The notes beneath the pieces are model-generated. The model saw nothing but the letters and a program-made list of their open reading frames with translations, searched no databases and had not been told where the DNA came from. Both the position numbers and the translations under genes were made by a program. A stretch of 39,533 nt of DNA. Origin: Rhodocyclales bacterium (lineage in GTDB: Bacteria; Pseudomonadota; Gammaproteobacteria; Burkholderiales; Rhodocyclaceae). Of the stretch, positions 1,014-14,474 are shown piece after piece; position 1 is the stretch's first letter, and the number at the start of each line of letters is the position of its first letter. The stretch covers positions 1 through 39,533 of the forward strand of contig JAPLQZ010000104.1 of NCBI GenBank assembly GCA_026399415.1, in the 5' to 3' direction.

Positions 1014-2333
1014 TCAGCCTTCCGCCATCTCCAGCTTGCGCATTTTTTCCCACAGGTTCTTGCGACTGATGCCGAGCAGGGCGGCGGTGTCGGCGATACG
1101 ACCGTCGCACTCGGTCAGCGCACGGCGGATGTAGGCGCGCTCGCATTCCTGCAGATGGTCACTGAGCGGCTGCCGTAACGCATCGCCTTCTGCGGCAGGC
1201 GAGCCACTGGTGCCGAACAGGTTTTCGGCATTCAGCGACGGGCTCAGTGAGAGAACGCTGGCGCGCTCCAAGCAGTGCTGCAGTTCGCGCACGTTGCCCG
1301 GCCAGGGATAGCGGGTCAAGGCGCGCTCGGCGTCGGCCGTCAGCGCACGACGTGTTTCGCCCTTGCTTGCCCGTTCATCGAGAAAGCCTGCCGCCAGCCA
1401 CAGAATGTCTTCCTGTCGCTCACGCAGGGGCGGCACCTCCAGGTGGATGACGTGGATCCGGTAATACAGATCCTCGCGGAAGCTGCCTTTCTCCACCATG
1501 GCTTTCAGGTCGTGATGGGTGGCGCATATCAGCCGGATATCCACCTTGTGTGGAGTGGCGCCGCCGACGCGAACCACCATCCGGTCCTGAATCGCGCGCA
1601 ACAGTTTGACCTGCATCGAAGGCGGCATTTCGCCAATCTCGTCGAGGAACAATGAACCGCCGTCCGCCTGCTCGAAAACTCCGCGCCGTTCCCGGTCGGC
1701 GCCGGTGAAGGCGCCCTTCTCGTGACCGAACAGCTCCGACTCGATCAGGTTCTCCGCTATCGCGCCGCAATTCACGGCGACGAAAGGGGTCTTGCCATCC
1801 GGGTCGCCGGCGCGATGCAGCGCACGCGCCACCTGTTCCTTGCCGGCACCGGATTCGCCGGAGATCAGCACCGCACTGCGACTGGCGGCCAGTCGCGGCA
1901 GCAGGCCTTCGATATGTCGCATGCTGGTGGAAATACCCAGCCGCGCCGTGGTGTTGGGGGCCGGTTGCTGGCGCTCGCACAAACTGCGGATCTTGCCGAT
2001 CAGTTCGCCGACATTGAACGGCTTGGTGACGTAATCGTGGGCTCCCAGCTTCAGCAGCCGCACCGCCTGATCGATGGCGCCGTAGCCGGTGATGAAAATG
2101 AATGGAGCGATCGCCTGACCGCTGGCAAGCAGATCGCCAAACAGCTGTTCGCCGCTGACATCCGGCAGATTGATGTCGCTCACCACCACGCTGTAGCGGC
2201 GCTGGCCGAGGCCGCGCCGCGCGGACTTGCCATCGCGATACCAGTCGCAGGCGAAACCCTCGAAGTCGAGCCGCTCGGAAAGCGCCTCGCCGATGATGGG
2301 GTCGTCCTCGATCAGGCCGATGCGGTGCTGCAT
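1014..2333 (-). CDS. NtrC-type sigma-54 response regulator (AioR/ArxR-like)
   Basis: A 439-aa three-domain activator. The receiver (about 1-120) has the DD pair at 10-11, phosphoacceptor D53 and K104. The AAA+ domain has Walker A GESGAGKE (159-166), the sigma-54 contact loop GAFTGA (207-212) and Walker B LFLDEIGE (228-235). A Fis-type helix-turn-helix is at the C-terminus (about 400-435). The start is the ATG at 2333, chosen because translation from it begins exactly at the receiver; it overlaps the kinase gene by 22 bp, indicating one transcript. The gene order binding protein-kinase-regulator matches aioXSR/arxXSR of arsenite oxidisers. Its probable targets are the GTTAC-N6-GTAAC palindromes at 4642, 4694 and 5002 and the sigma-54 promoter at 4795-4810. 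The family and domain calls are secure; the arsenic link is contextual. Confidence 0.93.
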
Positions 2334-3787
2334 GAGGTTTCTCCAAGAGGAAGATTGACGACGAACTCGACCTGGCCATCGATATTTCTGGCCGCAATGC
2401 GACCGCCAAGCTGAGTCACGATCTGGTAGGTCACCCAGAGGCCGAGGCCGTGGCCGCCGGGGCGAGTCGAGGCGAAAGGCTCGAACAGATGGGCAAGCTG
2501 TTCGTCGCCGAGCAGGGTGCCATCGTTGCGGACCACGATCGACAGCCAGGCTTCGGAATCCTCTTTTCGGCCCAGCCACAAGCTCACGTGGCCACCTTCG
2601 GCCGCCGCCTGCACGGCGTTGAGCAGCAGGTTGATCAGTATCTGGCGTACCAGACTGGCCGGCGCCGGCAATTCCACCGGCATGGCCGCCGACCATTCAA
2701 GCTGGATGCGGCGCTTGCCGACCTGCGGCTGGATCAGGGTATGAATATCCTCCAGGTCGTGCTGGTTCAGCGGCCGGGCCTGCACCCGGGTTTGCACCAG
2801 CAGCGCGGCGACGGTATCGCGAATCTGCATCAGGCCGCGATCGATCAGTTCAAGGCTGCGCAGCGCGCGCGGATCGAGATCGCGCCGCAGCTTGAGCGTA
2901 TCGACGACGGTGATCAGCCCGGCCAGGGGGTTGTTGATTTCGTGGGCAATGCCGGCGGTGAGCTGGCCAATCGCCGCCAACCGTTCCGACTTGACCATTT
3001 CGTTTTCGAGTGCGGCCTTGTCGCGCAGCGCCAGCACCATGCGGTCATAAGCATGAAACAGCTGGCCAAGTTCGTCGTCATAGGGATACAGATCCGCCGG
3101 CAGCGGCTGCGGCACCGTCTCCGGCATCATGCCCATGCGCTGCGCCAGATCGACCAGCGGCGCCGCCATGCGGCCGCCCCAGTACCAGTTGATGGGAATC
3201 AGCACCGCCAGCACCAGCAGGCCCAGTCCGAGGCCCTGCCAAAGGGTATCGATGAACCATGGATGGAAGACCGACTTCGCATAGCGCAGTACCAGATGCC
3301 CCAGTTGCGCGTCGTTATCGGTGATCGGCAGGGCCACGTAGAGATAGCTGGAGCCCTCCGGCTCCAGTACCAGCGGCCATTTGGTCCCGGGGCCAAGCTG
3401 CGTGCTCAACAGCTTCCAGTCGGCGCCCAGCGCCGCGGCCGCGGCCAGCATCGGCAGCGTATCCGGGTCACTGGAGACAAAGACCTTGTGGTCCGGGGCC
3501 AGAACCACCACGGCATCGACCTCGACCGGAGTTTGCGCCGATTCGCCGCGAATCGGCGAGCGCACGATCTCGAAGGCACGCCAGACGTCGTCGTGCAACA
3601 GCGTCGGCGCCACCGTGTTGGCGAGGGTATGCCCGAGATTGCCGGCGCTGATCACCACGGCGTTCTTCATGTCCTCATAAGCGCGCGCCATCAGCGCGGC
3701 GCCGACGACGAAAATCGAAAAGCTGATCAGGAAGGACGTCCACAACGGAATCTTGTGGCGGAAGGAAAGGTTGAACAGCCAGCGCAT
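2312..3787 (-). CDS. Membrane sensor histidine kinase (AioS/ArxS-like)
   Basis: A 491-aa kinase with a transmembrane helix near residues 14-35, a periplasmic domain of about 140 residues, and a second helix near 184-204. A HisKA domain carries the H-box GIAHEINNPLAG (H282). The HATPase domain has the N-box LINLLLNAVQAA and a G-box GGHGLGLW. It is the partner of the response regulator downstream and of the periplasmic binding protein upstream: its ATG shares one base with the binding-protein TGA (TGATG), so the three genes are translationally coupled. By analogy with AioXSR, the periplasmic domain would read the ligand state of the binding protein. No cytoplasmic PAS or Cys-rich sensor module is visible, consistent with sensing from outside. 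Confidence 0.93.
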   Translation of the reverse strand: MRWLFNLSFRHKIPLWTSFLISFSIFVVGAALMARAYEDMKNAVVISAGNLGHTLANTVAPTLLHDDVWRAFEIVRSPIRGESAQTPVEVDAVVVLAPDHKVFVSSDPDTLPMLAAAAALGADWKLLSTQLGPGTKWPLVLEPEGSSYLYVALPITDNDAQLGHLVLRYAKSVFHPWFIDTLWQGLGLGLLVLAVLIPINWYWGGRMAAPLVDLAQRMGMMPETVPQPLPADLYPYDDELGQLFHAYDRMVLALRDKAALENEMVKSERLAAIGQLTAGIAHEINNPLAGLITVVDTLKLRRDLDPRALRSLELIDRGLMQIRDTVAALLVQTRVQARPLNQHDLEDIHTLIQPQVGKRRIQLEWSAAMPVELPAPASLVRQILINLLLNAVQAAAEGGHVSLWLGRKEDSEAWLSIVVRNDGTLLGDEQLAHLFEPFASTRPGGHGLGLWVTYQIVTQLGGRIAARNIDGQVEFVVNLPLGETSCSTASA

Positions 3788-4680
3788 CAGGCTTCGCCAA
3801 AGGCGCGCATCATGCGCACGACTGGCTCATAGAGCGCCTGGCTGCCGGCAGTGAACCCATCCAGGTGCAGGCGGGCGAGCAGGCGGCGTCCCGCTTCAGT
3901 CTTTGGCGTATCAAGCAGATGGCGCTGCATCAGCTGAAAGTCGGCGGTGGAAACCGAGCGGTGACTGACGAAGGGCGGAAAGCCATACTCCGGCGAGCGC
4001 CACACCACCCGGGTGCGCAAGGCCAGCGCCGGCTCGACGTGAACCAGGGTGTCCCGGATATAGCTATCGACCGCGCCGCCCTGCGCCAGTCCGCTGGCGA
4101 CCGCTTCCACCACCTTGCGGTGCGAATAGGTGAAGAAGGTCTTGCGGAAGAAATTTGCGGGGTTGCGACCCAGCTGACGGATTTCGTAACGCGGCGCGAG
4201 GTAGCCGGTATTCGAATACGGATCGGCATAGGCAAACACGCTGCCGGCCAGATCGGCCATGGATTTGACCTGGTCGTTCTCCTTGCGCACGATCAGGTAG
4301 GAACGGTAATAGGGCCGCCTCTGATACAGCGGCACCGCCAGGAGGCGCACCTCCTGCTTGAGATGCAGATACGGATAGTCGCAGATCCAGGCGAAGTCCA
4401 GTTTTTCCAGTCGCAGCAGATCCATGGTTTCGCGGTAGCTGTCGCGCTGCACGAACTCTACCGGGCGCTGCAGCGAGGCCGACATGAAGGCGCGCCAATC
4501 GTGGAGCAGGCTGTGCTGGTCATGCAGAAAGGCGGGTGTCATGCCGACACGTATCTTGCCGTCCGTGGCCCAGGACTTGCGCGACAGGCCGATCAGGCCG
4601 GTGGCGGCGAGGCATCCGCTACCGATCAGCCAGCGACGCCGGTTACGGTTCGGTAACGCGATTCGATTATCCGTAGGCAT
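3787..4680 (-). CDS. Periplasmic PhnD/AioX-like oxyanion-binding sensor protein
   Basis: A 297-aa exported protein of the phosphate/phosphonate-binding (PhnD, PBP type 2) superfamily. The N-terminus has an RRR run and a hydrophobic stretch (15-32); export could be Sec, Tat-like (RRRWLIG) or, less likely, lipoprotein at the single SGC. Later motifs include VGMTPAFL, ADPYSNTGYLAPRY and a YGFPPFVSH loop. Cys100 lies in FAWICDYPY, in the part of the fold where AioX proteins carry the cysteine reported as essential for arsenite binding (Cys108 of Agrobacterium AioX, from memory). Adjacent kinase and sigma-54 regulator genes, and no ABC permease, point to a sensing role rather than transport. Operator-like palindromes lie in its first codons (4642-4657) and just upstream (4694-4709), suggesting autoregulation. 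The true ligand (arsenite, arsenate, phosphite or another) is not shown by the sequence. Confidence 0.8.
   Translation of the reverse strand: MPTDNRIALPNRNRRRWLIGSGCLAATGLIGLSRKSWATDGKIRVGMTPAFLHDQHSLLHDWRAFMSASLQRPVEFVQRDSYRETMDLLRLEKLDFAWICDYPYLHLKQEVRLLAVPLYQRRPYYRSYLIVRKENDQVKSMADLAGSVFAYADPYSNTGYLAPRYEIRQLGRNPANFFRKTFFTYSHRKVVEAVASGLAQGGAVDSYIRDTLVHVEPALALRTRVVWRSPEYGFPPFVSHRSVSTADFQLMQRHLLDTPKTEAGRRLLARLHLDGFTAGSQALYEPVVRMMRAFGEA
4642..4657. promoter_or_regulatory. Operator-like palindrome copy 1
   Basis: GTTACGGTTCGGTAAC, perfect 5-bp arms with a 6-bp spacer. It lies within early codons of the binding-protein gene and is centred about 171 bp upstream of the predicted sigma-54 start site. 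Copy 2 is 52 bp away centre to centre, about five helical turns, placing both on one DNA face. Confidence 0.72.
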
Positions 4681-4693
4681 GGAGTCTCCATCA

Positions 4694-4709
4694 GTTACGG
4701 TCTGGTAAC
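4694..4709. promoter_or_regulatory. Operator-like palindrome copy 2
   Basis: GTTACGGTCTGGTAAC, same arms and spacer length as copy 1. It sits 14 bp upstream of the binding-protein ATG and is centred near -119 relative to the predicted start of the reductase transcript, a normal distance for an NtrC-type enhancer site. Binding here could also repress or autoregulate the minus-strand regulator operon. Confidence 0.75.
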
Positions 4710-4794
4710 CATCTTAACCGGTTTTCCCTGTCTGTTCTCTCGGCATCCGCGGCACCCGATCCCAATCTCATGAAAGCACATTGTTTAGTTCGGC

Positions 4795-4810
4795 TGGCAC
4801 GCTTCTCGCA
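4795..4810 (+). promoter_or_regulatory. Sigma-54 (-24/-12) promoter for the reductase genes
   Basis: TGGCACGCTTCTCGCA matches the sigma-54 consensus TGGCACG-N4-TTGCA at all fixed positions except one T to C change. The invariant GG (4796-4797) and GC (4808-4809) have the required 10-bp spacing. Transcription would start near 4821, giving a leader of about 265 nt before the reductase ATG. The divergent operon encodes a GAFTGA-containing sigma-54 activator. Confidence 0.8.
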
Positions 4811-4925
4811 AAGAGATATGCAACATGAAGTTCAGACGCCTATTGTGAAGCCGTCACTCCTCGCCACCCTGGATCGTCTTGCCGCGTCAAAAGCGCTGCA
4901 GGCCTTGCCGCGCGCCGCGCCGTGC

Positions 4926-4959
4926 CGCCAGCGCCGACTTCTGTCGGCGCCTGTTGGCG
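4926..4959 (+). other. Strong hairpin in the reductase mRNA leader
   Basis: GCGCCGAC (4931-4938) pairs perfectly with GTCGGCGC (4943-4950) around a TTCT loop. The stem is extended by CGCCA (4926-4930) with TGGCG (4955-4959) across a 4-nt bulge. No T-run follows, so it is not a classical terminator. It may stabilise the 5' end or control readthrough in the long leader. Apart from this hairpin, the promoter and the palindromes, I see no gene in the 406-bp gap. Confidence 0.5.
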
Positions 4960-5001
4960 GGGTACGAAGGAGGAGAACGGTTTCGATAGCGTCGATCGCA
5001 G

Positions 5002-5017
5002 GTTACCGCACGGTAAC
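5002..5017. promoter_or_regulatory. Operator-like palindrome copy 3
   Basis: GTTACCGCACGGTAAC has the same arms as copies 1 and 2 with a different spacer. It is about 190 bp downstream of the predicted sigma-54 start and 70 bp before the reductase ATG. A downstream site could act as a second enhancer or as a roadblock or repression element. Confidence 0.65.
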
Positions 5018-5086
5018 TTCGCGGCGCCAGAGACGATTCAGCTCACAGTTTCTCAAATTGATTGAATTTCGATACAGGAGGTAGTC

Positions 5087-7642
5087 ATGAGGTTGACCAG
5101 ACGTGATTTTATAAAGGCATCGGCCGCGTCCGCCGCCTGGACGCTCGCCGGCAGCGCGATGGCAGCCGTTCAGGAGAAGACCAGGGCCATCCCGGTGAAG
5201 AATGCGCTGGTGCCGCGCAAGGCCAGACCCAGCACTCCGCCCAAGGGCGAGTGGGTGGCCAGCACCTGCCAGGGCTGCACCCAGTGGTGTGCGATCCAGC
5301 TGTACGTGCAAGGGGGTCGCATGACCCGCGTGCGCGGCAACGAGATTTCCAAGAGCAATCACGGCTACGTCTGCCCGCGCGGCCACCTGATCCCGCAGAT
5401 GACCTACGATCCGGATCGCGTCAAGGTACCGATGAAGCGCACCAATGCGGCCAAGGGCCGTGGCATCGACCCGAAGTTCGTGCCGATCTCCTGGGACGAG
5501 GCGATCACCATCGTCGCCGACAAGATGATCGAGTTGCGCACCGCCGGCGAGCCCGAAAAGCTGCTTTACATGCGCGGCCGCTATTCGCCGACCTCCACCG
5601 ACCTCCTCTACGGCACCCTGCCCAAGATCTTCGGCACCGGCAACTACTACTCGCACAGCGCCCTCTGCGCCGAGGCCGAGAAGATGGGCCCGGGTTTCAC
5701 CCAGGGATTCGCCGGCTATCGCGACTACGACCTGGAGAAGACCAACTGTCTGGTCGTGTGGGGCTGCGACCCGCTGGCGTCCAATCGCCAGGTGCCGAAC
5801 ACCATTCATCGCTTCCATGAGATCGTCGCCCGCGGCACCGTGATCGCGGTCGATCCGCGCCTCTCGAATGCAGCGGCCAAGGCTCACGAATGGCTGCCGG
5901 TCAAGCCCGGCACCGACGGCGCGCTGGCCGGCGCCATCGCCCATGTGCTGCTGACCGAAGGCTTGTGGAACCGCGAATTCGTCGGTGACTTCAAGGATGG
6001 CAAGAACCTCTTCGTCGCCGGTGCAACAGTTGCCGAAGATGCCTTCGTCGAGAAGGAAACCTCAGGGCTGATCAAGTGGTGGAACCTGGAACTGAAGGAC
6101 CGCACGCCAGCCTTCGGGGCGAAGGAATCCGGCATTCCCGCCGACCAGATCGTGCGCGTCGCCCGCGCGATGGGCAAGGCGGCGCCCAAGACCGCCGTCT
6201 GGATGGGTCCCGGTGCCGCGATGTGGCCACGCGGCACCTATGCCGCGATGGCGGTGCATGCACTCAATGGCCTGGTCGGTTCGATCGATGTCGAAGGCGG
6301 CGTCTGGGAAGGCGCCAGCGGCCCCAAGCTGGACAAGTTTCCCAGCACCGAGAAGTTCATCGATGAAGTGGCCAAGAAGGGCTACAAGAACCACGGCACC
6401 GACGTCCGCGGCAAGAAGGACATGCCGGCCTTCATGACTTCACCGATCAACCACGTGCCCAACATGCTGTTGAAGAGCCCCGACGCAATCAAGGTGGTGC
6501 TCTCTTCGTGGAGCAACTTCAACTTCTCCGCCACCGGCGCCGGCCGCTGGGACCAGGTACTGGCCAAGGTGCCCTTCTTTGCCCACATGGTCACCAATCC
6601 ATCGGAAATGACCCAGTTTGCCGACATCGTGCTGCCCTCCACCCACAACAGCAGCGAAGGCTGGTCGATCGTCACCAACATGTCCAACGGCTATGGCTAC
6701 GCCTCGATCCAGCAGAACCCGATCAAGCGTGTCTTCGAAGGCAAGCAGGAAGAGACCGAGGTGATGTGGCTGCTGGCGCAGAAGTTGAAAGCCAAGGGCT
6801 TCCCCAACCTGGCCGACTACTACGACACGGTCAAGGACCCGGAGACCGGCAAGTCGGCGACCAACGAGCTGGAATTCAGCGAGTTCGCCGCCAAACTCAC
6901 CAGCGCCCCGATCTGGAACGGCAAGGAAGTGCTCAAGGGCGACGCGCAGATCAAGAGCTGGGCCGAGTTCAAGGCCAGGGGCATGTTCCACGGTCCGCGC
7001 TACACCCTCAAGAAGGGCTGGGGCGGCAAGTTCAAGACCGAGACCAAGAAGTTCGAGTTCTACAGCGCGACGCTGAAGAAGAAGCTCGAGGAACACGCCA
7101 AGAAACACGAGACCACCACCGACGACATCCTCACGGTCAGCGGCTATACGGCGCGCGGCGATCTAGCCTTCGTGCCGCACTACGAGGAACCCAAGCGGCA
7201 CGGCAGCATGGCGGACTTCCCGTTCGACTTCGTCGACTACAAGTCGCGTCTGAACCGTGAAGGCCGCTCGCAGAACCTGCCCTGGTATCAGGAGTTCAAG
7301 AAGGTCGATCCCGGCGATGTCTCCTGGGGCGATGTGGTCAAGATGAATCCGGCCGACGGTGCCAAACTGGGCCTGAAGTCCGGCGACAGGGTAACCATCA
7401 CCTCGCTGGCGGGTTCGATCACCGTCGACCTCAAGTTGTGGGAGGGGGTGCGTCCCGGCACCGTGGCCAAGTGCTACGGCCAGGGCCACTGGGCCTACGG
7501 CCGCGTCGCGTCCAAGGACTACGCCAAGGCCGCTGCGCTCGGCGGCAACAACAACGAGATTCTGGTCGATGACTACGACCGGCTGAGTGGCGCCACGGCC
7601 CGCAACGGTGGCTTCACCGGTGTGCGGATCGCCAAAGCCTGA
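5087..7642 (+). CDS. arrA: Respiratory arsenate reductase-like molybdopterin catalytic subunit
   Basis: An 851-aa molybdenum bis-MGD oxidoreductase of the DMSO-reductase family, about the length of known ArrA proteins. A Tat signal (RRDFIK, 5-10; cleavage likely after AMA at 26) sends it folded to the periplasm. The [4Fe-4S] site is C61-x2-C64-x3-C68-x27-C96, the ArrA spacing. The substrate pocket shows R165-Y166 in RGRY, H190-S191, Mo-ligand C194, K199 and Y211; order and spacing parallel the arsenate-binding residues I recall for Shewanella ANA-3 ArrA. Arsenite-oxidising ArxA is reported to have GRGWG where this has RGRY. It has a strong ribosome site (AGGAGG, about 5076-5081) and is followed 20 bp later by the ferredoxin subunit. 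Expected reaction: arsenate to arsenite, with electrons from quinol. Antimonate or another oxyanion cannot be excluded from sequence. Confidence 0.8.
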   Translation: MRLTRRDFIKASAASAAWTLAGSAMAAVQEKTRAIPVKNALVPRKARPSTPPKGEWVASTCQGCTQWCAIQLYVQGGRMTRVRGNEISKSNHGYVCPRGHLIPQMTYDPDRVKVPMKRTNAAKGRGIDPKFVPISWDEAITIVADKMIELRTAGEPEKLLYMRGRYSPTSTDLLYGTLPKIFGTGNYYSHSALCAEAEKMGPGFTQGFAGYRDYDLEKTNCLVVWGCDPLASNRQVPNTIHRFHEIVARGTVIAVDPRLSNAAAKAHEWLPVKPGTDGALAGAIAHVLLTEGLWNREFVGDFKDGKNLFVAGATVAEDAFVEKETSGLIKWWNLELKDRTPAFGAKESGIPADQIVRVARAMGKAAPKTAVWMGPGAAMWPRGTYAAMAVHALNGLVGSIDVEGGVWEGASGPKLDKFPSTEKFIDEVAKKGYKNHGTDVRGKKDMPAFMTSPINHVPNMLLKSPDAIKVVLSSWSNFNFSATGAGRWDQVLAKVPFFAHMVTNPSEMTQFADIVLPSTHNSSEGWSIVTNMSNGYGYASIQQNPIKRVFEGKQEETEVMWLLAQKLKAKGFPNLADYYDTVKDPETGKSATNELEFSEFAAKLTSAPIWNGKEVLKGDAQIKSWAEFKARGMFHGPRYTLKKGWGGKFKTETKKFEFYSATLKKKLEEHAKKHETTTDDILTVSGYTARGDLAFVPHYEEPKRHGSMADFPFDFVDYKSRLNREGRSQNLPWYQEFKKVDPGDVSWGDVVKMNPADGAKLGLKSGDRVTITSLAGSITVDLKLWEGVRPGTVAKCYGQGHWAYGRVASKDYAKAAALGGNNNEILVDDYDRLSGATARNGGFTGVRIAKA

Positions 7643-7662: not shown

Positions 7663-8463
7663 ATGATGAAATTTGGAATGGTTATCGATCTGTCACGCTG
7701 CGTTGGCTGTGGCTCTTGCGCCTTTGCCTGCAAAGCCGAAAACAACACGCGCAACCGCGCCGGCGGCCAAAGCTACAACTGGGCCGACTTCCTGATGCAC
7801 AGCGAGGGCACGTTTCCCAACACCCGTCACATGGTGATGCCGGTGCTGTGCAATCACTGCGACGATGCACCCTGCATCAAGGTTTGTCCGGGCAACAAGG
7901 AGAAGGCCGGCAAGGGCAAGCCCTACAAGGCGCTGTTCAAGACGCCGGAAGGCATTACCCTGCACGATCCGGAACTGTGCGTCGGTTGCGGCGACTGCCA
8001 GAGGATAGGCTGTCCCTACAGCCACGAGAAACTTGGCGCGAACAGCCTGAATGGCGAGACCTATAGCGTGATCAGTCTCAATGCGATGGACGAAGAACCG
8101 CAGCCATTCTGGGCCGACAAGACATCGGCGATTCCCGGCGCCACCTCGTCGGGCGCCGAAGTTTCCGCCAAGGCCGGCACCCGGATCCCGGCGATGAACG
8201 TGTGGCAGGCCGGCGATCTGCAGCCGATACGCAAGGACGACGTGGTCGAGAAATGCACCTTCTGCTATCACCGCACGCTCAATGGCCTGCAACCAGCCTG
8301 CGTCGAGGCCTGTCCTGCCCAGGCCCGCATCTTTGGCGACAAGGACGATCCGAACAGCAAGATCTCGCAGATACTGAAGAAGGAAAAGTCTTTCCGCCTG
8401 CAGGAAGAAAAAGGCACCAAGCCGAATGTGCATTACATCGGCAAGTACAGTCCGCGTGCCTGA
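7663..8463 (+). CDS. arrB: Four-cluster ferredoxin subunit (ArrB-like)
   Basis: A 266-aa polyferredoxin with sixteen cysteines in four groups: 13/16/19/23, 63/66/71/75, 106/109/112/117 and 198/201/213/217. These would bind four [4Fe-4S] clusters carrying electrons to the molybdenum subunit. There is no signal peptide, as expected for a subunit co-exported with its Tat-targeted partner. The third group ends C-x4-C-P rather than the common C-x3-C-P, and a loop of about 35 residues (roughly 145-185) precedes the last group. It is preceded by AAGGAG at about 7652-7657; ATG at 7663 or 7666 are both possible. No NrfD-type membrane subunit follows, so electrons must arrive from a separate carrier. 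It is closest in style to ArrB/TtrB/PsrB subunits. Confidence 0.85.
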   Translation: MMKFGMVIDLSRCVGCGSCAFACKAENNTRNRAGGQSYNWADFLMHSEGTFPNTRHMVMPVLCNHCDDAPCIKVCPGNKEKAGKGKPYKALFKTPEGITLHDPELCVGCGDCQRIGCPYSHEKLGANSLNGETYSVISLNAMDEEPQPFWADKTSAIPGATSSGAEVSAKAGTRIPAMNVWQAGDLQPIRKDDVVEKCTFCYHRTLNGLQPACVEACPAQARIFGDKDDPNSKISQILKKEKSFRLQEEKGTKPNVHYIGKYSPRA

Positions 8464-8511: not shown

Positions 8512-8532
8512 CGTCCCGTTTCCGGAGATGCA

Positions 8533-9168
8533 ATGACCGACTATGTCAATGGCAAGGCTGGCGCGCGCGAAGATCTGTCCCGCTTCCTTGCCGCCTGCTA
8601 TTACGAACCCAGCACGGATTTCAGCGAGGAGCACCTGTTCGAGTCCATGCTGGCCGCGGCGAGCGCGATTGATCCGGATCTCGCCGAGCGTGCCCGCAAA
8701 CTGGGCGCGGCATTTGCGGCGCAGGACATGCAGACGCTGCTGGTTGACCACACCGCGCTGTTCATCGGGCCTTCGCAACCCAGGGCAATGCCCTACGCCT
8801 CGTTCTGGCTGACCGACGACCAGTCAGGGCGGCACGAGGCGACCATGGCGGTGCTCGATCTCTATGCGCAAGGCGGCTTCGACGTCAGCGAAGAATTGCA
8901 CGAATTGCCGGACCATATCGCGGTGGAGCTGGAGTTTCTGTACCTGCTGATCTTCGCCCAGAACCAGGTGCCAATCGGCGGCACCATGTTCGACCTGGTG
9001 GCAGCCAATGCACTGCATCGCCGCTTCGTTGTCGAACATCTGGAAGCATGGATCGACGCGTTCGCGGCGGCGGTCAAGTCGGGCGCCGAAACCGCGTTTT
9101 ACCGTGAGCTGGCGGAGTTTACCGAGCGGTTCGTGCGGATGGAGGCAGATCTGGCGCGTCGGCACTGA
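8533..9168 (+). CDS. TorD/DmsD-family molybdoenzyme maturation chaperone (ArrD-like)
   Basis: A 211-aa, mostly helical cytoplasmic protein of the TorD/NarJ chaperone group. Recognisable features are the N-terminal FLAACYYEPSTDF segment, the central YASFWL motif (about 85-90), and the ELPDHIAVELEFLYLL region with the conserved E-P/L-D-H-I motif. Such proteins bind the Tat signal and apo-form of a specific molybdoenzyme until cofactor is inserted; its partner here is the ArrA-like subunit. The start is the ATG at 8533 with GGAG at 8524-8527; an earlier in-frame start would run back into the terminator hairpin. The gene begins only 22 bp after that terminator. Confidence 0.85.
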   Translation: MTDYVNGKAGAREDLSRFLAACYYEPSTDFSEEHLFESMLAAASAIDPDLAERARKLGAAFAAQDMQTLLVDHTALFIGPSQPRAMPYASFWLTDDQSGRHEATMAVLDLYAQGGFDVSEELHELPDHIAVELEFLYLLIFAQNQVPIGGTMFDLVAANALHRRFVVEHLEAWIDAFAAAVKSGAETAFYRELAEFTERFVRMEADLARRH

Positions 9169-9272
9169 GTCTGAGCCCGGGGAGTCTCGATAGACAGCGG
9201 ATGTTCCCAAATTGCAGGTAACGCAAGATAATGACGGAATAAGTCCGTTCGATGAAACTCTTTGCGCGCTTA

Positions 9273-9286: not shown

Positions 9287-9354
9287 GATCGAGGGGCTTT
9301 TTTGTAGCAAGCTGTGCGGCCAAACTTTTGTACAACTCTTATCGGAGCTTTACT

Positions 9355-9699
9355 ATGAAAACCAAAACCACCCTTTTGCTGACTGGATCATTGTTCTTCG
9401 CCCTGGCCGGACTGACCCCGGCGCAGGCGGCGGTCGATGAAGCTGCCGCCCAGGCGCTCGCCAAGAAGAATGACTGCTTCAAGTGCCATGCGGTTGACAA
9501 GAACAAGAAGGGCCCCTCCCTGAAGAAGATCGCGGAGAAGTACAAGGGCAAGGCCGATGGTGAAGAAAAGGCCATCAAGAACATGACCACCGGTCCCAAG
9601 GTCAAGCTCGAAGACGGAACGGAAGAAGAGCACAAGATCATCGACACCAAGGACCCGAAGGAGCTGAAGAACCTGGCTCAGTGGATTCTTTCACGCTGA
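9355..9699 (+). CDS. Small periplasmic monoheme cytochrome c (paralogue 1)
   Basis: A 114-aa secreted class I-type cytochrome c. The signal peptide ends near PAQAA (about 24), followed by one heme site, DCFKCHAVDK. The mature protein is lysine-rich (KYKGKADGEEK) and ends in a helix NLAQWILSR typical of this fold. It is one of three paralogues here (12008 and 14136). Where the other two read HIT-x-x-P-M, this copy reads NMTTGPK, so the likely axial methionine differs in position. An FNR box precedes it and a strong terminator follows, so it can be made alone under anaerobiosis. Likely role: soluble electron shuttle between membrane cytochromes and the reductase, by context. Confidence 0.85.
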   Translation: MKTKTTLLLTGSLFFALAGLTPAQAAVDEAAAQALAKKNDCFKCHAVDKNKKGPSLKKIAEKYKGKADGEEKAIKNMTTGPKVKLEDGTEEEHKIIDTKDPKELKNLAQWILSR

Positions 9700-9712
9700 T
9701 CCAGCACAACAT

Positions 9713-9755
9713 ACTGCCGGGACCTGCTAGCCAGGTCCCGGCAGTGTTTCGTTTT
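9713..9755 (+). terminator. Strong terminator after cytochrome c 1
   Basis: A 14-bp perfect stem (9713-9726 with 9732-9745) and 5-nt loop are followed by the T-rich stretch 9747-9754. It begins 14 bp after the cytochrome stop codon. Confidence 0.88.
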
Positions 9756-9811
9756 GAGCCGACGTTTTTGTGCAAGCATCTGAAATCATGAGCCATCGGG
9801 AAATCAACACA

Positions 9812-11833
9812 ATGCGTACCAACAAGTTTGCAGTCTGGGTTGTGGCAGCGACGGTCTGTCTGGCCGGAACATGGATCAGCGGTTCAGTAGCCGCCGCCAA
9901 CAGCAAGGACGCGGCACCACCCGTTGCGGCCAAACTCGACAACGCCACTTGCCAGAGTTGCCACGATGGCAAGAAAGGCAAACTGGAAACCATTGGCGCC
10001 GATGGCGCGAAACTGACGCTGGATCAGATTCCTGACGACAAGTACGGCAAGGGCGTCCATGGGTCGCTGCAGTGCGGCTCCTGCCACAAGGACATCACCG
10101 ACGCAGTAACGCCGCACAAGAGGGACGCGGCGCAAAAGCCGGATTGCGTCCAGTGCCACACCGCTTTGTGGGAAACGGCCAAAAAAGACAAGATGACCCA
10201 GGAAAAGACCCGACTGGGAATCGTGGTGCAGAACATCGAGGCCTACAAGAACTCTTTCCATTCCCGGCCGAACAAGGAAGACAAGACGCGCGTCAATGCC
10301 ACCTGCGACAACTGCCACGATGTGCATACCTTCAATGTCCCCCCCCGCGGCACGTCCAAACGGGCCGACGAATGGCGTCGGACCGTGCCCAATGTTTGCG
10401 GCGAGAAGTGTCACAGCGACGAACTGGAAGAATTCAACGGCTCGGTGCATGGCAAGGCGCTCAACGACAAGAACAATCTGAAGGCGGCGGTATGCATCGA
10501 CTGCCATACCTCGCACGGCATCGGCAACACCTCGGCAAACCCGATCAAGCTGGGACTCACCGAAAAGTGCGGCGGCTGCCATGAGGACAACCTCAAGACC
10601 TACCGCGACACCTACCATGGCCAGGTCAATTCCCTGGGCTATGCCACGACCGCCAAGTGCTACGACTGTCACGGCAGCCATGGCATCCAGAAGTCCGACG
10701 ATCCCGGCTCGAAAGTCAATCCCAAGAACCGGCTGAAGACCTGCAAGCAGTGTCACAACGACAAGAAGCCGGGCATGTTCGACGCCACGCCGGGCTTCGT
10801 CACGTTCAGTCCGCACGGCAACAGCCACGACTTTGCCAAATATCCTGAAATCTGGCTTACCACCAAGTTCATGGTGGCGCTGCTGATCGGCGTCTTTGCG
10901 TTCTTCTGGGCGCATTCCATCCTCTGGTGGTATCGCGAGTACGCGGATCGCCGGGACGGCAAGACGCGCCCGCATGTCCGCACCGATGCATTGCCGGCTG
11001 AATTTGCCACCAAGTACGTGCGTCGCTTCGGTCCCATGTGGCGCATCGCACACCTGCTCTTCGCCATCAGCGTGATGACACTGGTGCTTACCGGGATGGT
11101 GCCGTTCTACGCGGAAACCCTCTGGGCCAAGGTTGTTGTCGGTGTGATCGGCAGTCCCAAGGCGGCAGGCTGGGTCCACCGCATTGCCGCGTTCATCATG
11201 CTGGGGATTTTCTTCATTCACCTGATTGCGGTAACCGTCAACATCGGGCGGAACTGGAAGACCTTCGAGTTCTTCGGCCCCAACTCGTTCGTGCCAAACT
11301 GGAAGGACGGAAAAGACCTGGTCGGCATGTTCAAGTGGTTCCTCGGCCTGGGTCCGCGTCCGACCTTCGAGCGCTGGACATACTGGGAGAAGTTCGATTA
11401 CTGGGCGGTGTTCTGGGGTATGGCCATCATCGGCGGCAGCGGCATGACGCTCGCCTTCCCGCACCTCGTCGCCCTAGTCTTCCCCGGCTGGGTGTTCAAC
11501 GTGGCAATGGTGGTGCATGGCGAAGAAGCCTTCCTCGCGGCAGTCTTCCTCTTCACGGTGCATTTCTTCAACAACCACTTCCGCCCCGACAAACTGCCGC
11601 CACCGGATGTGGTGATGTTCACCGGTGTGCAATCGCTGGAAGAGTTCAAGCACGAGCACACGGAGCAGTACTTGCGCCTGGTGAAGGCGGGCGAATTGGA
11701 GAAGTACCTGGTGGATGCGCCGTCAGCTCCCTTCACACGCGGTTCCAAGATTCTTGGCCTGACGTTGCTCGCCATCGGCCTGGTAATCCTGGTGCTGGTC
11801 GCAATCGGGTTCTTTGGTGGCGGTCACGCCTGA
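9812..11833 (+). CDS. Nine-heme cytochrome c fused to membrane cytochrome b
   Basis: A 673-aa fusion. After a signal peptide (about 1-29) a periplasmic domain holds nine heme sites: CxxCH at 47, 88, 112, 165, 228, 253, 283 and 311, plus an unusual C-x3-CH (CGEKCH) at 196. From residue 348 onward are about five transmembrane helices of a cytochrome b561/FdhI-like domain with candidate heme-b histidines (WAHSI, RIAHLL, WVHRIAAF, FFIHLIAV, VVHGEE, TVHFFNNH). The design suggests quinol oxidation at heme b and transfer through the nine hemes to periplasmic acceptors. The ATG at 9812 is chosen because a CGGGAAA ribosome site lies 8 bp before it and the signal peptide starts there; ATG 9788 or GTG 9770 would add a poor leader. 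It could replace the missing NrfD subunit. No named family is recognised with certainty. Confidence 0.85.
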   Translation: MRTNKFAVWVVAATVCLAGTWISGSVAAANSKDAAPPVAAKLDNATCQSCHDGKKGKLETIGADGAKLTLDQIPDDKYGKGVHGSLQCGSCHKDITDAVTPHKRDAAQKPDCVQCHTALWETAKKDKMTQEKTRLGIVVQNIEAYKNSFHSRPNKEDKTRVNATCDNCHDVHTFNVPPRGTSKRADEWRRTVPNVCGEKCHSDELEEFNGSVHGKALNDKNNLKAAVCIDCHTSHGIGNTSANPIKLGLTEKCGGCHEDNLKTYRDTYHGQVNSLGYATTAKCYDCHGSHGIQKSDDPGSKVNPKNRLKTCKQCHNDKKPGMFDATPGFVTFSPHGNSHDFAKYPEIWLTTKFMVALLIGVFAFFWAHSILWWYREYADRRDGKTRPHVRTDALPAEFATKYVRRFGPMWRIAHLLFAISVMTLVLTGMVPFYAETLWAKVVVGVIGSPKAAGWVHRIAAFIMLGIFFIHLIAVTVNIGRNWKTFEFFGPNSFVPNWKDGKDLVGMFKWFLGLGPRPTFERWTYWEKFDYWAVFWGMAIIGGSGMTLAFPHLVALVFPGWVFNVAMVVHGEEAFLAAVFLFTVHFFNNHFRPDKLPPPDVVMFTGVQSLEEFKHEHTEQYLRLVKAGELEKYLVDAPSAPFTRGSKILGLTLLAIGLVILVLVAIGFFGGGHA

Positions 11834-11838
11834 CAAAA

Positions 11839-11865
11839 CAGCCGGGCAGTCGCCCGGCTGTTTTT
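11839..11865 (+). terminator. Rho-independent terminator after multiheme cytochrome
   Basis: CAGCCGGGC (11839-11847) pairs with GCCCGGCTG (11852-11860), followed by TTTTT (11861-11865). It starts 5 bp after the stop codon. Confidence 0.9.
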
Positions 11866-11945
11866 GCTGCGTGTGCCGGAGCCGGCATTGGTCTAGAATG
11901 CACGGCGTAGTTTTTGCAGTTGGACACGGAACGGACTGGAGCGCA

Positions 11946-11963
11946 AAGTCGCAGGGGCGACTT
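11946..11963 (+). other. Leader hairpin before cytochrome c 2
   Basis: AAGTCGC pairs perfectly with GCGACTT around AGGG. It is followed after about 8 bp by a T-rich tract (TTTATTTTTGTTTT, 11971-11984) that runs into the ribosome site. It may be a weak attenuator or a 5' stabiliser. A possible -10 (TAGAAT) lies at 11894-11899, without a clear -35. Confidence 0.4.
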
Positions 11964-12007
11964 GGGCCGCTTTATTTTTGTTTTCTATTTAGAGGAGTAG
12001 TACCCGC

Positions 12008-12340
12008 ATGAAAATTCTCGCGAGCTTGATGGTGGTCGGTGGCTTGATGACGGCCTCGTTTGCCTACGCAGCAGTGGACGCAGATGCAGCGCGGGCGTTG
12101 ATGAAAAAGAGCGATTGCTTCAAATGCCACGCCATTGACAAGAAAAAGGATGGCCCGTCCTACAAGGAAACTTCAACGAAATACAAGGGTAAGGCGGATG
12201 CGGAAGACAAGCTGACCAAGCACATCACCCTCGAACCGATGATCGAGAACAAGGACGGCAAGAAAGAAAAGCATAAGGCGATCGAGAGTACTAACGCCCC
12301 CGAGATCAAGAACGTCGTGCAGTGGATTCTGTCGCTGTAG
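12008..12340 (+). CDS. Small periplasmic monoheme cytochrome c (paralogue 2)
   Basis: A 110-aa secreted cytochrome c with a signal peptide ending AYA (about 20) and one heme site, DCFKCHAIDK. The candidate distal Met lies in HITLEPM. It shares the KYKGKAD and QWILSL segments with paralogue 1, indicating duplication. A GAGGAG ribosome site (about 11992-11997) precedes the ATG. It stands alone between a terminator upstream and a 15-bp inverted repeat downstream. It is probably an electron carrier between the quinol-oxidising cytochromes and the periplasmic reductase. Confidence 0.85.
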   Translation: MKILASLMVVGGLMTASFAYAAVDADAARALMKKSDCFKCHAIDKKKDGPSYKETSTKYKGKADAEDKLTKHITLEPMIENKDGKKEKHKAIESTNAPEIKNVVQWILSL

Positions 12341-12368
12341 TAATGGTTTGTCGGTTTGACAAAAATTA

Positions 12369-12404
12369 GCCGGGCCAGTACCCACTAAAGGGTACTGGCC
12401 CGGC
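12369..12404. terminator. Perfect 15-bp inverted repeat after cytochrome c 2
   Basis: Arms 12369-12383 and 12390-12404 pair without mismatch around ACTAAA. On the plus strand no T-run follows; the T-tract (complement of AAAAATTA, 12361-12368) is on the minus-strand side. As a terminator it would therefore work best for leftward transcription, although no minus-strand gene is apparent. On the plus strand it may instead protect the 3' end of the cytochrome mRNA. Confidence 0.6.
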
Positions 12405-12474
12405 GATGTTGTAGAGTGCCTGCGCGCAAGTAAATCGGTGCGCTGATGCGTGTCTTATCGTGGAGGAAGGGCAA

Positions 12475-13110
12475 ATGCTGCCTCGTAAATTACGTACAGT
12501 TCTTGAAAGGGTGCGCAAGTGGAGCGAGGGGAAAAAAGCCCCGATTGTGCTTCTGACGGGACTTGTCGTCAGCATAGTGGTTGTGACCCTGACCGCCACG
12601 ACCATCATATATACCAGCACGGAGGAGTTCTGCTCCACCACCTGCCATGAGATGACCACCAACGTGGCCATGGAGTTCAAGGGAACCATTCACGACAAGA
12701 ACCGCACCGGCGTTCGCGCCACCTGTCCCGACTGCCATATTCCCCATTCCCAGGTGCCGCTTTATATCCGCAAGATGGGCGCGGTACACGACCTCTGGGG
12801 ACACTTCGTCACGGGCTCGATCAATACCCGGGAGAAATTCGAGGCCAAGCGCCAGGAACTGGCCGAACGGGTCTGGATCTACATGAAAGAAAATGATTCC
12901 CGCGAGTGCCGCGGTTGTCACAACGCCGCGAAAATGAGCCCCGAGAAACAGTCCGAAAAGGCACAGGCACGGCACGCCAAGGCCAAGAAGGAGCGCCTGA
13001 CCTGCATCGACTGCCACTTCGCCATCGCTCACAATGAGCCTGAAGGCGGCGTGGGACCGCAGGAACTGGAAGTGGACAAGAGCCTGATTTCGAAAGGGGC
13101 GATTTTTTAA
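12475..13110 (+). CDS. NapC/NirT-family tetraheme quinol dehydrogenase (copy 1)
   Basis: A 211-aa membrane-anchored tetraheme cytochrome. One N-terminal helix (about 22-46) is followed by heme sites at C53-H58 (CSTTCH), C84-H88, C145-H149 and C177-H181. The segments HEM, GTIHDKNRTGVRATC-x2-CH and LWGHFVTGSI are standard in NapC/NirT/CymA proteins, which oxidise quinol and pass electrons to periplasmic reductases. The first heme site has three residues between cysteines, where NapC and CymA usually have two. A strong ribosome site (GGAGGAAGG, 12462-12470) fixes the ATG at 12475. A close paralogue follows at 13179. CymA fills this role for ArrAB in Shewanella, so it is a natural electron donor here. 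Confidence 0.9.
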   Translation: MLPRKLRTVLERVRKWSEGKKAPIVLLTGLVVSIVVVTLTATTIIYTSTEEFCSTTCHEMTTNVAMEFKGTIHDKNRTGVRATCPDCHIPHSQVPLYIRKMGAVHDLWGHFVTGSINTREKFEAKRQELAERVWIYMKENDSRECRGCHNAAKMSPEKQSEKAQARHAKAKKERLTCIDCHFAIAHNEPEGGVGPQELEVDKSLISKGAIF

Positions 13111-13178
13111 TTCACGCCTGATTGCAGCGGTTTCCGCGTTTTCCATCGGCGTTGTGTGTGTCAGAGGAGAAGGGCCAG

Positions 13179-13781
13179 ATGTCCAAGTTTCTTGAGAAAA
13201 TCCGCAGCTGGGCTTCGGGCTCCGGATCGCTAGGCGTGCTGGTTGCAGGTCTTGTCGCAGGCTTGGTTGTTTTAGCGTCCACCGGGACTTTCATGGTCTA
13301 TGCCAACTCGGAGAACTTCTGCGCCAATGCCTGCCACGAGATGACCAGCACCGTGGCGGTGGAGTACAAGGGCAGCATTCACGACACGAGTCGAAGCGGT
13401 GTGCGGGCCACCTGTAACGACTGCCATGTTCCCCACGGCTACATACCGAATTACATCGCCAAACTGGGCCTTTTATCCGATCTTTGGGGCCACTTCGTCA
13501 CGGGATCGATCGATACCAAGGAAAAATTCGAGGCCAAACGCTCCGAATTGGCGAAGCGGGTGTGGGTCGATATGAAAGCGAACGACTCGCGCGAATGCCG
13601 CCATTGCCACAACAGTGGCAAGATGGATCCTAAGAGGGTGTCCGAGAAGGCACAGAAGCGCCACGACAAGGGCCGCGTAGAAGGGCTGACCTGCATCGAG
13701 TGTCATTTCGCCATCTCGCATAACGAACCCGAGGGTCCTGGACCGCAGGAAATATTCGCGGCTGAGGCGGCAAAGAAATGA
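13179..13781 (+). CDS. NapC/NirT-family tetraheme quinol dehydrogenase (copy 2)
   Basis: A 200-aa paralogue of the preceding gene, with a membrane helix at about 18-42 and hemes at C48-H53 (CANACH), C79-H83, C140-H144 and C172-H176. It shares the same unusual C-x3-CH first motif and long identical blocks such as LWGHFVTGSI, KFEAKR and NDSREC. This marks a tandem duplication. The AGAGGAGAAGG ribosome site (13163-13173) sets the ATG at 13179. It could feed a different acceptor or quinone type from copy 1. A terminator follows at 13804. Confidence 0.9.
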   Translation: MSKFLEKIRSWASGSGSLGVLVAGLVAGLVVLASTGTFMVYANSENFCANACHEMTSTVAVEYKGSIHDTSRSGVRATCNDCHVPHGYIPNYIAKLGLLSDLWGHFVTGSIDTKEKFEAKRSELAKRVWVDMKANDSRECRHCHNSGKMDPKRVSEKAQKRHDKGRVEGLTCIECHFAISHNEPEGPGPQEIFAAEAAKK

Positions 13782-13803
13782 GTTTGCGGCAAGCGTAGGG
13801 GGA

Positions 13804-13834
13804 AACGGGACCGGCAACAAGCTTCCCGTTTTTT
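13804..13834 (+). terminator. Terminator after NapC copy 2
   Basis: AACGGGA (13804-13810) pairs with TCCCGTT (13824-13830), followed by more T residues to 13834. The 13-nt loop makes it weaker than the other terminators in this locus. Confidence 0.65.
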
Positions 13835-13875
13835 CGGCCGACCGATGTTGGATGATCGAAACGAAAGGAATTGTC

Positions 13876-14124
13876 GTGTTAATTGACTGCTACGAATGCC
13901 AGGCCAAGGTAAGCGACTCCGCGGCCAGCTGCCCTCATTGCGGAGCCATACCCCTAGATCCGGCCCACTCGTTGCCGGTTGAGATCTCCGACCTGGATAT
14001 GAAGTTCACCACGATGTTCTGGTTCCTCATCAAGCTCGCATTTGCCGCCGTCCCTGCCGTTATTGTCATTTATACCGCTTGGACCATTATTGGCGGTGTG
14101 ATGAATCCGTTGTTGCACATGTAG
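13876..14124 (+). CDS. Small zinc-ribbon membrane protein, function unknown
   Basis: An 82-aa protein (90 aa if the ATG at 13852 is used). The N-terminus has CYEC and CPHC pairs, a zinc-ribbon knuckle, and one hydrophobic helix spans about residues 45-75. The GTG at 13876 is preferred because AAAGGA lies 6 bp before it. It sits immediately before the third cytochrome c gene (11-bp gap) and may be cotranscribed with it. A soluble zinc ribbon tethered to the membrane could help assemble or regulate the neighbouring cytochromes, but no function can be assigned. Confidence 0.6.
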   Translation: MLIDCYECQAKVSDSAASCPHCGAIPLDPAHSLPVEISDLDMKFTTMFWFLIKLAFAAVPAVIVIYTAWTIIGGVMNPLLHM

Positions 14125-14135
14125 TTGTTATAACA

Positions 14136-14474
14136 GTGAATAATGCTATTGCCCTGACAGGAATAGTGCTGCTTGCTCTCGCCTGCATTGGCCCGGCACA
14201 GGCGCAGGTTGACGCCGAGGCCGCCCAGGCGCTGGCGAAAAGGAACGACTGCTTCAAGTGCCACGCCATCGACAAGACCAAGAAGGGCCCCTCCTACAAA
14301 AGGGTAGCCGCCCGTCTGAAGACCAAGCCCGATGGCGTGGAAACGATCGTCGAGCACATCACCACCGGCCCCATGATTCAGTTGGTGGACGGTAGCGACG
14401 AAAGGCACAAGATCATCGACACCAAGGACCCCGCCGAACTCGAAAATCTGGCGCGGTGGATTCTTTCGCTCTGA
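14136..14474 (+). CDS. Small periplasmic monoheme cytochrome c (paralogue 3)
   Basis: A 112-aa secreted cytochrome c with a signal peptide ending AQA (about 22), heme site DCFKCHAIDK and candidate distal Met in HITTGPM. It ends RWILSL like its paralogues at 9355 and 12008. The likely start is the GTG at 14136, which gives a normal-length signal peptide; no strong ribosome site is visible, and it lies 11 bp after the stop of the zinc-ribbon gene, suggesting translational coupling. The following 270 bp to mrp contain no gene I can support; a TATAAAAT box near 14640 may belong to the mrp promoter. Confidence 0.8.
   Translation: MNNAIALTGIVLLALACIGPAQAQVDAEAAQALAKRNDCFKCHAIDKTKKGPSYKRVAARLKTKPDGVETIVEHITTGPMIQLVDGSDERHKIIDTKDPAELENLARWILSL

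Follow-up and report, generated by a model that had tools for sequence, protein, structure and literature searches.

How could a respiratory arsenate reductase receive electrons when no gene for an NrfD/ArrC membrane subunit lies near it and the adjoining electron-transfer genes encode cytochromes? This question is raised by a 39,533-nucleotide stretch of DNA from a Rhodocyclales bacterium (hereafter the window), which is the whole of contig JAPLQZ010000104.1 (C249) in the 3.1-Mb draft genome GCA_026399415.1 (completeness 85.8%). The window probably carries an arsenic-inducible ArrA locus of a Sulfuritalea-type betaproteobacterium, in which arrXSR genes are divergent from arrA, arrB, arrD, and a cytochrome c gene, and which lies next to a quinol-oxidizing cytochrome cassette. 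The arsenate-respiration locus is real and mostly of a known kind, and its unusual part is the cytochromes, whose kinds are known mainly from iron-mineral-respiring bacteria. An earlier interpretation made from the letters alone (the sequence-only reading) had proposed a distinct respiratory architecture; its ArrA-type enzyme and cytochrome neighbors stood up to analysis, whereas the regulatory trio, arrAB without arrC, and arr genes in Sulfuritalea had all been published before.

The 851-aa catalytic subunit is, judged by its sequence, an enzyme of the respiratory arsenate reductase type (ArrA), as the sequence-only reading had held. Its best solved relative was ArrA 6cz7 (866 bits), which we take to be the enzyme of Shewanella sp. 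ANA-3, and the runner-up was thiosulfate reductase 2vpw with 154 bits. Among the hidden Markov models of NCBIfam, the ArrA family NF041714 gave 980 bits, compared with 218 for PhsA, 199 for the DmsA type, and 77 for TtrA. In a quick tree of 94 rows, which had no bootstraps, contained no AnrA, SrrA, TtrA, or PhsA, and carried a long-branch warning for rows including L015, L010, and L094, the enzyme fell inside an 83-row ArrA clade, and six ArxA-type rows formed a separate clade, each with a Shimodaira-Hasegawa-like approximate likelihood ratio test (SH-aLRT) value of 100. The ArrA clade also included M. selenatarsenatis and L015, the latter scoring 1381 bits against 6cz7. Rhodocyclaceae/Sulfuritalea rows were the nearest neighbors of the window enzyme, followed by other betaproteobacteria and then by a Geobacter/Nitrospirota group, while the incomplete row L068 fell outside the tree owing to a 700-aa length limit. 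Identity to the ArrA rows L015, L010, and L094 was 48–53%, and the row nearest to 6cz7 was 48% identical to the window enzyme. The R/KGRY motif has been reported to tell ArrA from ArxA (PMC11283718), and RGRY was present in all 83 ArrA rows and in none of the six ArxA rows, which contained (N/Y/F)GRGW. An ArxA assignment was rejected on the tree placement and the RGRY motif; the enzyme neither grouped with ArxA nor had an adjacent ArxC/NrfD gene, and it was found with an adjacent ArrB, ArrC being optional in Arr systems. Arsenate is the predicted substrate.

Within the genus of the window, which is presumably Sulfuritalea, the enzyme was found at an identity of at least 81% in 12 of 31 genomes (its own included), and three further genomes had an Arx-like match of 34–36% only. 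The presence of arr in this group, which might have been taken as new, is already in the literature. Putative arrA genes were reported in 2019 in Rhodocyclaceae and Nitrospirae metagenome-assembled genomes (PMC6730927), and a 2024 listing gave arr in 9 of 30 Sulfuritalea reference genomes, 19 Rhodocyclaceae genomes, and 35 Burkholderiaceae genomes, and the same study gave stable-isotope evidence that sulfur is oxidized at the expense of arsenate (PMC11283718). S. hydrogenivorans sk43H, a freshwater isolate in culture, is stated to carry arrAB and to have been the first betaproteobacterium shown to respire arsenate (PMC6397845, citing Watanabe 2017).

The genes are arranged divergently, with the arrXSR-type trio on the minus strand and arrA, arrB, arrD, and the cytochrome genes on the plus strand. 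Every part of the gene list in the sequence-only reading was present in the DNA where that reading had placed it. The features are as follows.

225 to 986, plus strand: UbiE/COQ5-like methyltransferase paralogue, tail-to-tail with the regulator gene (PF01209, 100 bits)
1014 to 2333, minus strand: arrR, sigma54-activating response regulator with receiver, AAA+, and Fis-type helix-turn-helix parts (PF00072; PF00158, 225.6 bits; PF02954)
2312 to 3787, minus strand: arrS, membrane histidine kinase (HisKA and HATPase_c; two hydrophobic segments)
3787 to 4680, minus strand: arrX, periplasmic sensor of arsenic oxyanions, AioX/ArxX/ArrX subfamily (best solved relatives AioX and ArrX)
4642 to 4657: operator-like site 1, GTTAC-N6-GTAAC, inside the start of the sensor gene
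4694 to 4709: operator-like site 2, GTTAC-N6-GTAAC, 52 bp from site 1
4795 to 4810, plus strand: sigma54-like promoter element TGGCACGCTTCTCGCA, a match to the pattern GG-N10-GC
5002 to 5017: operator-like site 3, GTTAC-N6-GTAAC
5087 to 7642, plus strand: arrA, molybdopterin catalytic subunit, 851 aa, bearing an RR signal motif at its N-terminus and RGRY at positions 163–166
7663 to 8463, plus strand: arrB, ferredoxin-like (Fe-S) electron-transfer subunit (best NCBIfam match NF041715 ArrB, 224.5 bits)
8533 to 9168, plus strand: arrD, TorD-family maturation chaperone (PF02613, 98.3 bits)
9355 to 9699, plus strand: cytc1, monoheme cytochrome c (PF00034)
9711 to 9747, plus strand: terminator-like hairpin with a 16-bp stem in the gap between cytc1 and the nine-heme/b gene (−33.4 kcal/mol with flanks)
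about 9812 to 11833, plus strand: nine-heme c and cytochrome-b-type quinol oxidoreductase, CbcL/MtrH/MtoC-like (heme motifs, hydrophobic C-terminal half)
12008 to 12340, plus strand: cytc2, monoheme cytochrome c (PF00034)
12369 to 12404: hairpin with a 15-bp stem separating cytc2 from the NapC pair (−36.4 kcal/mol, flanks included), its T tail being on the minus strand
about 12475 to 13110, plus strand: first NapC/NirT tetraheme, CymA-like (PF03264, 211.5 bits)
about 13179 to 13781, plus strand: second NapC/NirT tetraheme, CymA-like (PF03264, 197.5 bits)
13852 to 14124, plus strand: small zinc-ribbon-like membrane protein of the cassette (zinc-ribbon matches below cut-off)
14079 to 14474, plus strand: cytc3, monoheme cytochrome c (PF00034, 27.5 bits)

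A gene for an Mrp/NUBPL-type ATPase lies downstream of cytc3. Another contig of the same genome (L098, G000:C217) brings together NapA with its likely partners, a permease at 65% to one in a Cereibacter arsenic island, a CDF-type gene, an ArsC-like gene (below cut-off), and ACR3.

The best solved relatives of the arrX product were AioX (188 bits) and ArrX (130 bits), with PhnD/PtxB-type proteins at no more than 38 bits. Of the AioX pocket residues listed in PMC5908839 (Tyr88, Cys106, Tyr131, Ser161, Ser163, His192, and Asp210), six of seven were identical in arrX and Ser163 was replaced by Thr, as read by eye from the alignment. The trio has the AioXSR/ArxXSR layout described in the sequence-only reading, but its mismatch with an ArrA enzyme is not a sign of novelty. 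arrXSR genes have been reported in arr clusters, and the XSR phylogeny tracks 16S rather than the enzyme (PMC5908839), so that an AioX-like sensor beside ArrA is expected in a betaproteobacterium; moreover, all three proteins were matched on 31 of 80 related loci, a set formed by the best 80 of 579 relatives of the enzyme. The AioXSR, ArxXSR, and ArrXSR systems share with the window the three kinds of protein, the pocket residues, a sigma54 activator, and a 16-bp palindrome bounded by GTT..AAC. The AioR motif from the literature has this length and these ends (PMC5335332), whereas the window has the core GTTAC-N6-GTAAC in three copies with a differing center. A further trio, made up of a PhnD-type sensor (41% identical to that of the window), a kinase (36%), and a regulator (56%), was observed at L137:1362-10688, divergent from MtrA, MtrB, and nine-heme/b genes, as if the same type of sensor governed an extracellular electron-transfer operon.

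Three exact GTTAC-N6-GTAAC palindromes were found in the 39.5 kb, all in the divergent region (4642, 4694, and 5002). With up to one mismatch, four sites were present compared with 0.19 expected, and none of 100 shuffles reached four; no exact site was found in 87,704 bases, in partly overlapping stretches, elsewhere in the same genome. Among the 79 loci with enough upstream DNA (the window included), exact sites numbered three in 10, two in 7, and one in 13. The three-site layout, in which sites 1 and 2 are 51 to 53 bp apart, was present in 10 of the 12 closest loci (the window, L017, L018, L019, L020, L021, L022, L024, L025, and L068, the last of which was put in this group by identity and not by the tree); of the other two, L023 has variant sites and L029 is without upstream DNA. 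A sigma54-like element stood at a similar offset in eight close relatives (L017, L018, L019, L020, L021, L022, L025, and L068), and the GG-N10-GC pattern gave no match in L023 and L024. In five loci that belong to the Rhodoferax type or stand near it (L030, L031, L037, L038, and L043), a sigma54-like element is preceded by two sites. The three sites together with the sigma54-like element, conserved in close relatives, are new elements, and the sites are candidate binding sites of ArrR.

With regard to the membrane subunit, an ArxC query over the whole window and two ArrC queries within 9.5 kb of the enzyme gave no match, no genome-wide NrfD search having been run. The missing NrfD/ArrC subunit and the all-cytochrome neighborhood of the sequence-only reading were therefore borne out close to the enzyme. 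However, the absence was rejected as a peculiarity of this locus. NrfD/ArrC-labeled genes were present within 9.5 kb of the enzyme on four of the 80 related loci, a lower bound because 27 of the 80 have less than 2 kb of sequence on one or both sides; L094 has ArrC, the genes of L032 and L079 are parts of arx clusters, and that of L080 is a 22% match. Relatives of the enzyme do not always sit with NrfD, and arr operons occur as arrCAB or arrAB (PMC2500031), which means that the layout without arrC had already been described. The Shewanella system of ArrAB with CymA resembles the window in its ArrA family, its lack of ArrC, and the service of a NapC/NirT tetraheme in arsenate respiration (PMC2500031). 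Other arrangements were seen among the related loci. L032 and L079 have the reductase next to the oxidase, an arx cluster with an ArxA-type enzyme and NrfD standing in inverted orientation no more than about 10 kb from the arr cluster. Two proteobacterial genomes that are far removed from the window encode a cytochrome of the octaheme-tetrathionate-reductase family and a cytochrome b directly upstream of arrA (L096:7606-9264 and L099:5958-7622). In the distant loci L062, L080, L086, and L089, a twelve-heme single-anchor cytochrome gene lies just upstream of arrA; three of these four proteins have an NrfH-like N-terminus, and they are further candidates for an NrfD replacement.

All of the cytochromes named in the sequence-only reading, namely two NapC/NirT tetrahemes, a nine-heme/cytochrome b fusion, and three small cytochromes, were found. 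The nine-heme/b protein contains eight CXXCH motifs and one CXXXCH motif, and its C-terminal half is hydrophobic; to our knowledge, the Shewanella arsenate system has no such protein. All 19 aligned homologues, including four deltaproteobacterial ones (one Geobacter, one Pelovirga, one Desulfuromonadales, and one unplaced), keep 17 periplasmic His residues (nine heme and eight more) and six His residues in the membrane half, which scored 26.5 with PF01292 against a cut-off of 30.1. This combination of an N-terminal multiheme c part and a C-terminal HydC/FdnI-like half with conserved His is that of CbcL, MtrH, and MtoC, described as quinol oxidoreductases of extracellular electron transfer with nine hemes and a HydC/FdnI-type membrane half, and the sequence of the window protein fits the family as described (PMC6295460). 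In a comparison with homologues from genomes rather than with named CbcL or MtrH sequences, it was 57% identical to a Rhodoferax copy (L138) and, across the part that matched, shared 40–44% identity with nine copies from deltaproteobacteria, near the corresponding values of 55% and 35% in PMC6295460. Both tetrahemes have the PF03264 domain, four heme motifs, and the single membrane anchor of the NapC/NirT family, with scores of 194.8 and 189.8 that are below the NCBIfam napC_nirT cut-off of 310.6.

The association of the nine-heme/b gene with arr is conserved at the level of the genus. The genus set contained 13 arr loci in 12 genomes, several of them the same records as members of the 80-locus set; 11 were read and 10 were informative, since L193 ends inside TorD, and the coordinates of the unread loci of G1044 and G1039 end inside arrA. 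Eight of the 10 informative loci have the nine-heme/b gene after TorD (the window, L186, L187, L188, L189, L190, L191, and L194, in the last of which it is interrupted by the contig end), and in seven of the eight, cytc1 stands between them. The single-contig genome G1034 of the genus (3,802,648 bases) has arrA (84% identical), arrB, TorD, cytc1, and the nine-heme/b gene in the same order, but a methyltransferase homologue lies between TorD and cytc1, and the 19 kb that were read showed no NapC pair. A cytc3 homologue was found directly 3' of the nine-heme/b gene in L186, L188, L189, and L191, and the window's own genome showed a single nine-heme/b gene, beside arr. In a wider search at E 1e-20, 33 of 50 arr-carrying genomes matched the nine-heme/b protein, some via the cytochrome b half only, and in the Rhodoferax loci L037 and L043, a 25–29% similar nine-heme protein and a separate cytochrome b are encoded downstream of arr. 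No paper on a link between arr and CbcL/MtrH was found in the open-access literature, which is weak evidence of absence. G1053 (completeness 100, contamination 10) was observed to have two arr loci, L187 with and L185 without the nine-heme/b gene, and may be a mixed bin.

From these parts, the following mechanism can be proposed. ArrX would bind an arsenic oxyanion, and ArrS would phosphorylate ArrR, which would then bind the GTTAC-N6-GTAAC sites and activate the sigma54 promoter for arrABD. Quinol, probably ubiquinol, would give up its electrons to the cytochrome b half of the CbcL/MtrH-like protein, for which a role as the quinol dehydrogenase of Arr is plausible, and the two CymA-like proteins might oxidize quinol as well. 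Via the nine hemes and the monoheme cytochromes c, electrons would pass to ArrB and on to ArrA, where arsenate would be reduced to arsenite. In favor of this reading, ACR3-like efflux genes were found on 20 of the 80 related loci, and the window's genome has one ACR3 gene outside the window.

A number of observations weigh against an arsenate-respiration locus served by these cytochromes. The enzyme scored below the curated cut-off of NF041714 (980 against 1600 bits), and its ArrB neighbor was below that of NF041715 (224.5 against 450 bits), although this was its best-scoring family. In a scan of eight other proteins with NF041714, L015 alone passed (1673), and the Cereibacter Arx-type enzyme scored 438; because the ArrA of M. 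selenatarsenatis (1119) also misses the cut-off, the latter looks too narrow for the ArrA family. No ars gene was matched in the window itself, and 49 of the 79 loci with enough upstream DNA have no GTTAC-N6-GTAAC site. On 24 of the 41 related loci with at least 5 kb on both sides of the enzyme, none of the sought membrane partners or multiheme genes was found. Two of the 10 informative genus loci, L185 and L192, have no nine-heme/b gene beside arr, no locus of the 80-locus set outside the genus group has the fused gene in that place, and the NapC pair was beside arr in this window alone among 88 loci, many of them incomplete. Of 300 genomes of the order, 16 besides the window's own had the nine-heme/b family (E 1e-60), none of them with the enzyme, which at E 1e-100 was matched in three of the 300, namely the window's genome and two with an Arx-like protein at 35%; some nine-heme/b copies adjoin MtrA/MtrB genes. 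The locus also probably consists of several transcription units, since the hairpins at 9711–9747 and 12369–12404 argue against a single transcript. The scan gave 19 terminator-like sites compared with 13.8 expected, and these two hairpins were much the longest. For the gap that separates cytc1 from the nine-heme/b gene, folding energies in L186, L187, L188, L189, L190, and L194 ranged from −21.7 to −35.9 kcal/mol, and the gaps between TorD and cytc1 fold too, these energies being given without a shuffle control.

The strongest alternative, although an unlikely one, is that the arr genes are ordinary, that the NapC and nine-heme/b genes make up a cassette of their own, for iron or extracellular electrons, which is adjacent by chance, and that electrons come from a general quinol dehydrogenase. 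The hairpins dividing the units and the 24 loci without a candidate partner speak for it, as does the nine-heme/b family found without arr. On Rhodoferax L138, an OmcA/MtrC-type gene (952-aa frame, ten heme motifs) is followed by cytc2, NapC1, NapC2, the zinc-ribbon gene, and the nine-heme/b gene, and the contig also has an MtrB-type gene; this resembles the R. ferrireducens mtr cluster of two cymA genes, mtrH, and mtrABC (PMC6295460). Because five of these genes are 57–76% identical to those of the window (cytc2 76%, NapC1 61%, NapC2 67%, zinc ribbon 68%, nine-heme/b 57%), the downstream half of the window resembles the L138 cassette in another gene order. Homologues of cytc1 were found near nine-heme/b genes on the arr-free stretches L136, L140, L143, L145, and L151. 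In a quick tree of the nine-heme/b protein, without bootstraps and omitting fragments below 330 aa, rows below 30% identity, and duplicates, arr-linked and Mtr-linked copies were intermixed, the window copy being sister to the other eight rows of its group. The idea that the cytochromes are specific to arr was rejected on the basis of this mixing and of the independent occurrence of the family. Against a chance neighborhood, 8 of the 10 informative loci of the genus have the nine-heme/b gene directly downstream of arr. CbcL/MtrH/MtoC systems, especially the R. ferrireducens mtr cluster, likewise have nine hemes, a HydC/FdnI-type half, and two CymA-like genes close by (PMC6295460), but the window protein adjoins an arsenate reductase, and the own genome, though only 86% complete, gave no MtrB/PioB match in a search in which 14 of 20 genomes had one above cut-off. 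The concern that the cytochromes form an unrelated conserved operon is partly justified by the cassette of NapC pair and nine-heme/b gene on L138, a contig with Mtr-type genes, yet within the genus the nine-heme/b gene mostly accompanies arr. Given the hairpins between the units and the occurrence of the cassette in the absence of arr, we can only infer the coupling of arr with the cytochromes, which the preferred reading of an arsenic-inducible ArrA locus next to a quinol-oxidizing cassette takes to be functional.

The type of quinone bears on this reading and on a bolder form of it. Searches for MenD (over cut-off) and MqnA-type proteins (PF02621) found neither in 16 of 20 arr-carrying genomes, although drafts can miss genes. 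The genomes without both menaquinone pathways include the window's own and its eight nearest relatives, G929-G936; the exceptions were G970 with MenD, and G959, G962, and G974 (Geobacteraceae) with PF02621. The MenD model matched in all 20 genomes, below cut-off in 19, and in all 14 controls, over cut-off in 7. Because menaquinone alone has been argued to give substantial drive for arsenate reduction (PMC2500031), arr organisms without menaquinone pathways are of interest, and with both pathways missing from 16 of the 20 genomes, arsenate respiration driven by ubiquinol via the nine-heme/b protein becomes a testable idea. The methyltransferase at 225–986 scored below the cut-off of every NCBIfam family listed, and it was rejected as an arsenite methyltransferase, for which there were weak matches only. 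L189 has a homologue within its arr operon (L189:9142), L197 has one beside the nine-heme/b gene (L197:1146), and in L187 and L191 a homologue is tail-to-tail with the regulator gene, so this UbiE-like paralogue is possibly linked to the arr locus. The own genome has a further paralogue at 82% on C114 and a 27% match on C2 that fits ordinary UbiE, and homologues (53–68%) were also present in six genomes of the family at places where arr was not seen. We tentatively put forward, as somewhat the less probable view, that arsenate respiration in this group is menaquinone-free and driven by ubiquinol, with the CbcL/MtrH-type protein replacing ArrC for ArrAB and possibly with a dedicated quinone-modifying UbiE paralogue.

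The same quinone data could be read in the opposite direction, with the enzyme acting as an arsenite oxidase that feeds ubiquinone via the cytochromes, as Arx does. CbcL/MtrH/MtoC proteins have been implicated in both directions (PMC6295460), and arrX is nearer to AioX than to ArrX, which, in addition to the 16 genomes without both menaquinone pathways and the drive argument of PMC2500031, would suit this direction. It is nevertheless highly improbable, as RGRY separates Arr from Arx, the enzyme is placed in the ArrA clade, arsenate respiration has been reported in the genus (PMC6397845), and the relatives L032 and L079 have a separate arx cluster beside arr. Equally improbable is another oxyanion such as antimonate as the physiological acceptor with arsenate secondary, since the identity of only 48–53% to L015, L010, and L094 and a comparison made without an AnrA or SrrA reference are outweighed by the arsenic-family sensor, the RGRY motif, ACR3-like efflux genes on 20 of the 80 related loci, and the arsenate respiration reported in the genus (PMC6397845).

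Low-potential menaquinone has been argued to be the sole quinone with a substantial drive for arsenate respiration (PMC2500031). These betaproteobacteria seem to be without it, yet one member of the genus has been reported to respire arsenate. The conserved pairing of arr with a CbcL/MtrH-type protein offers a concrete candidate route for arsenate respiration, and it does so in cultured bacteria. In lakes and aquifers with arsenic mobilization, arsenate respiration and mineral respiration may therefore have parts in common.

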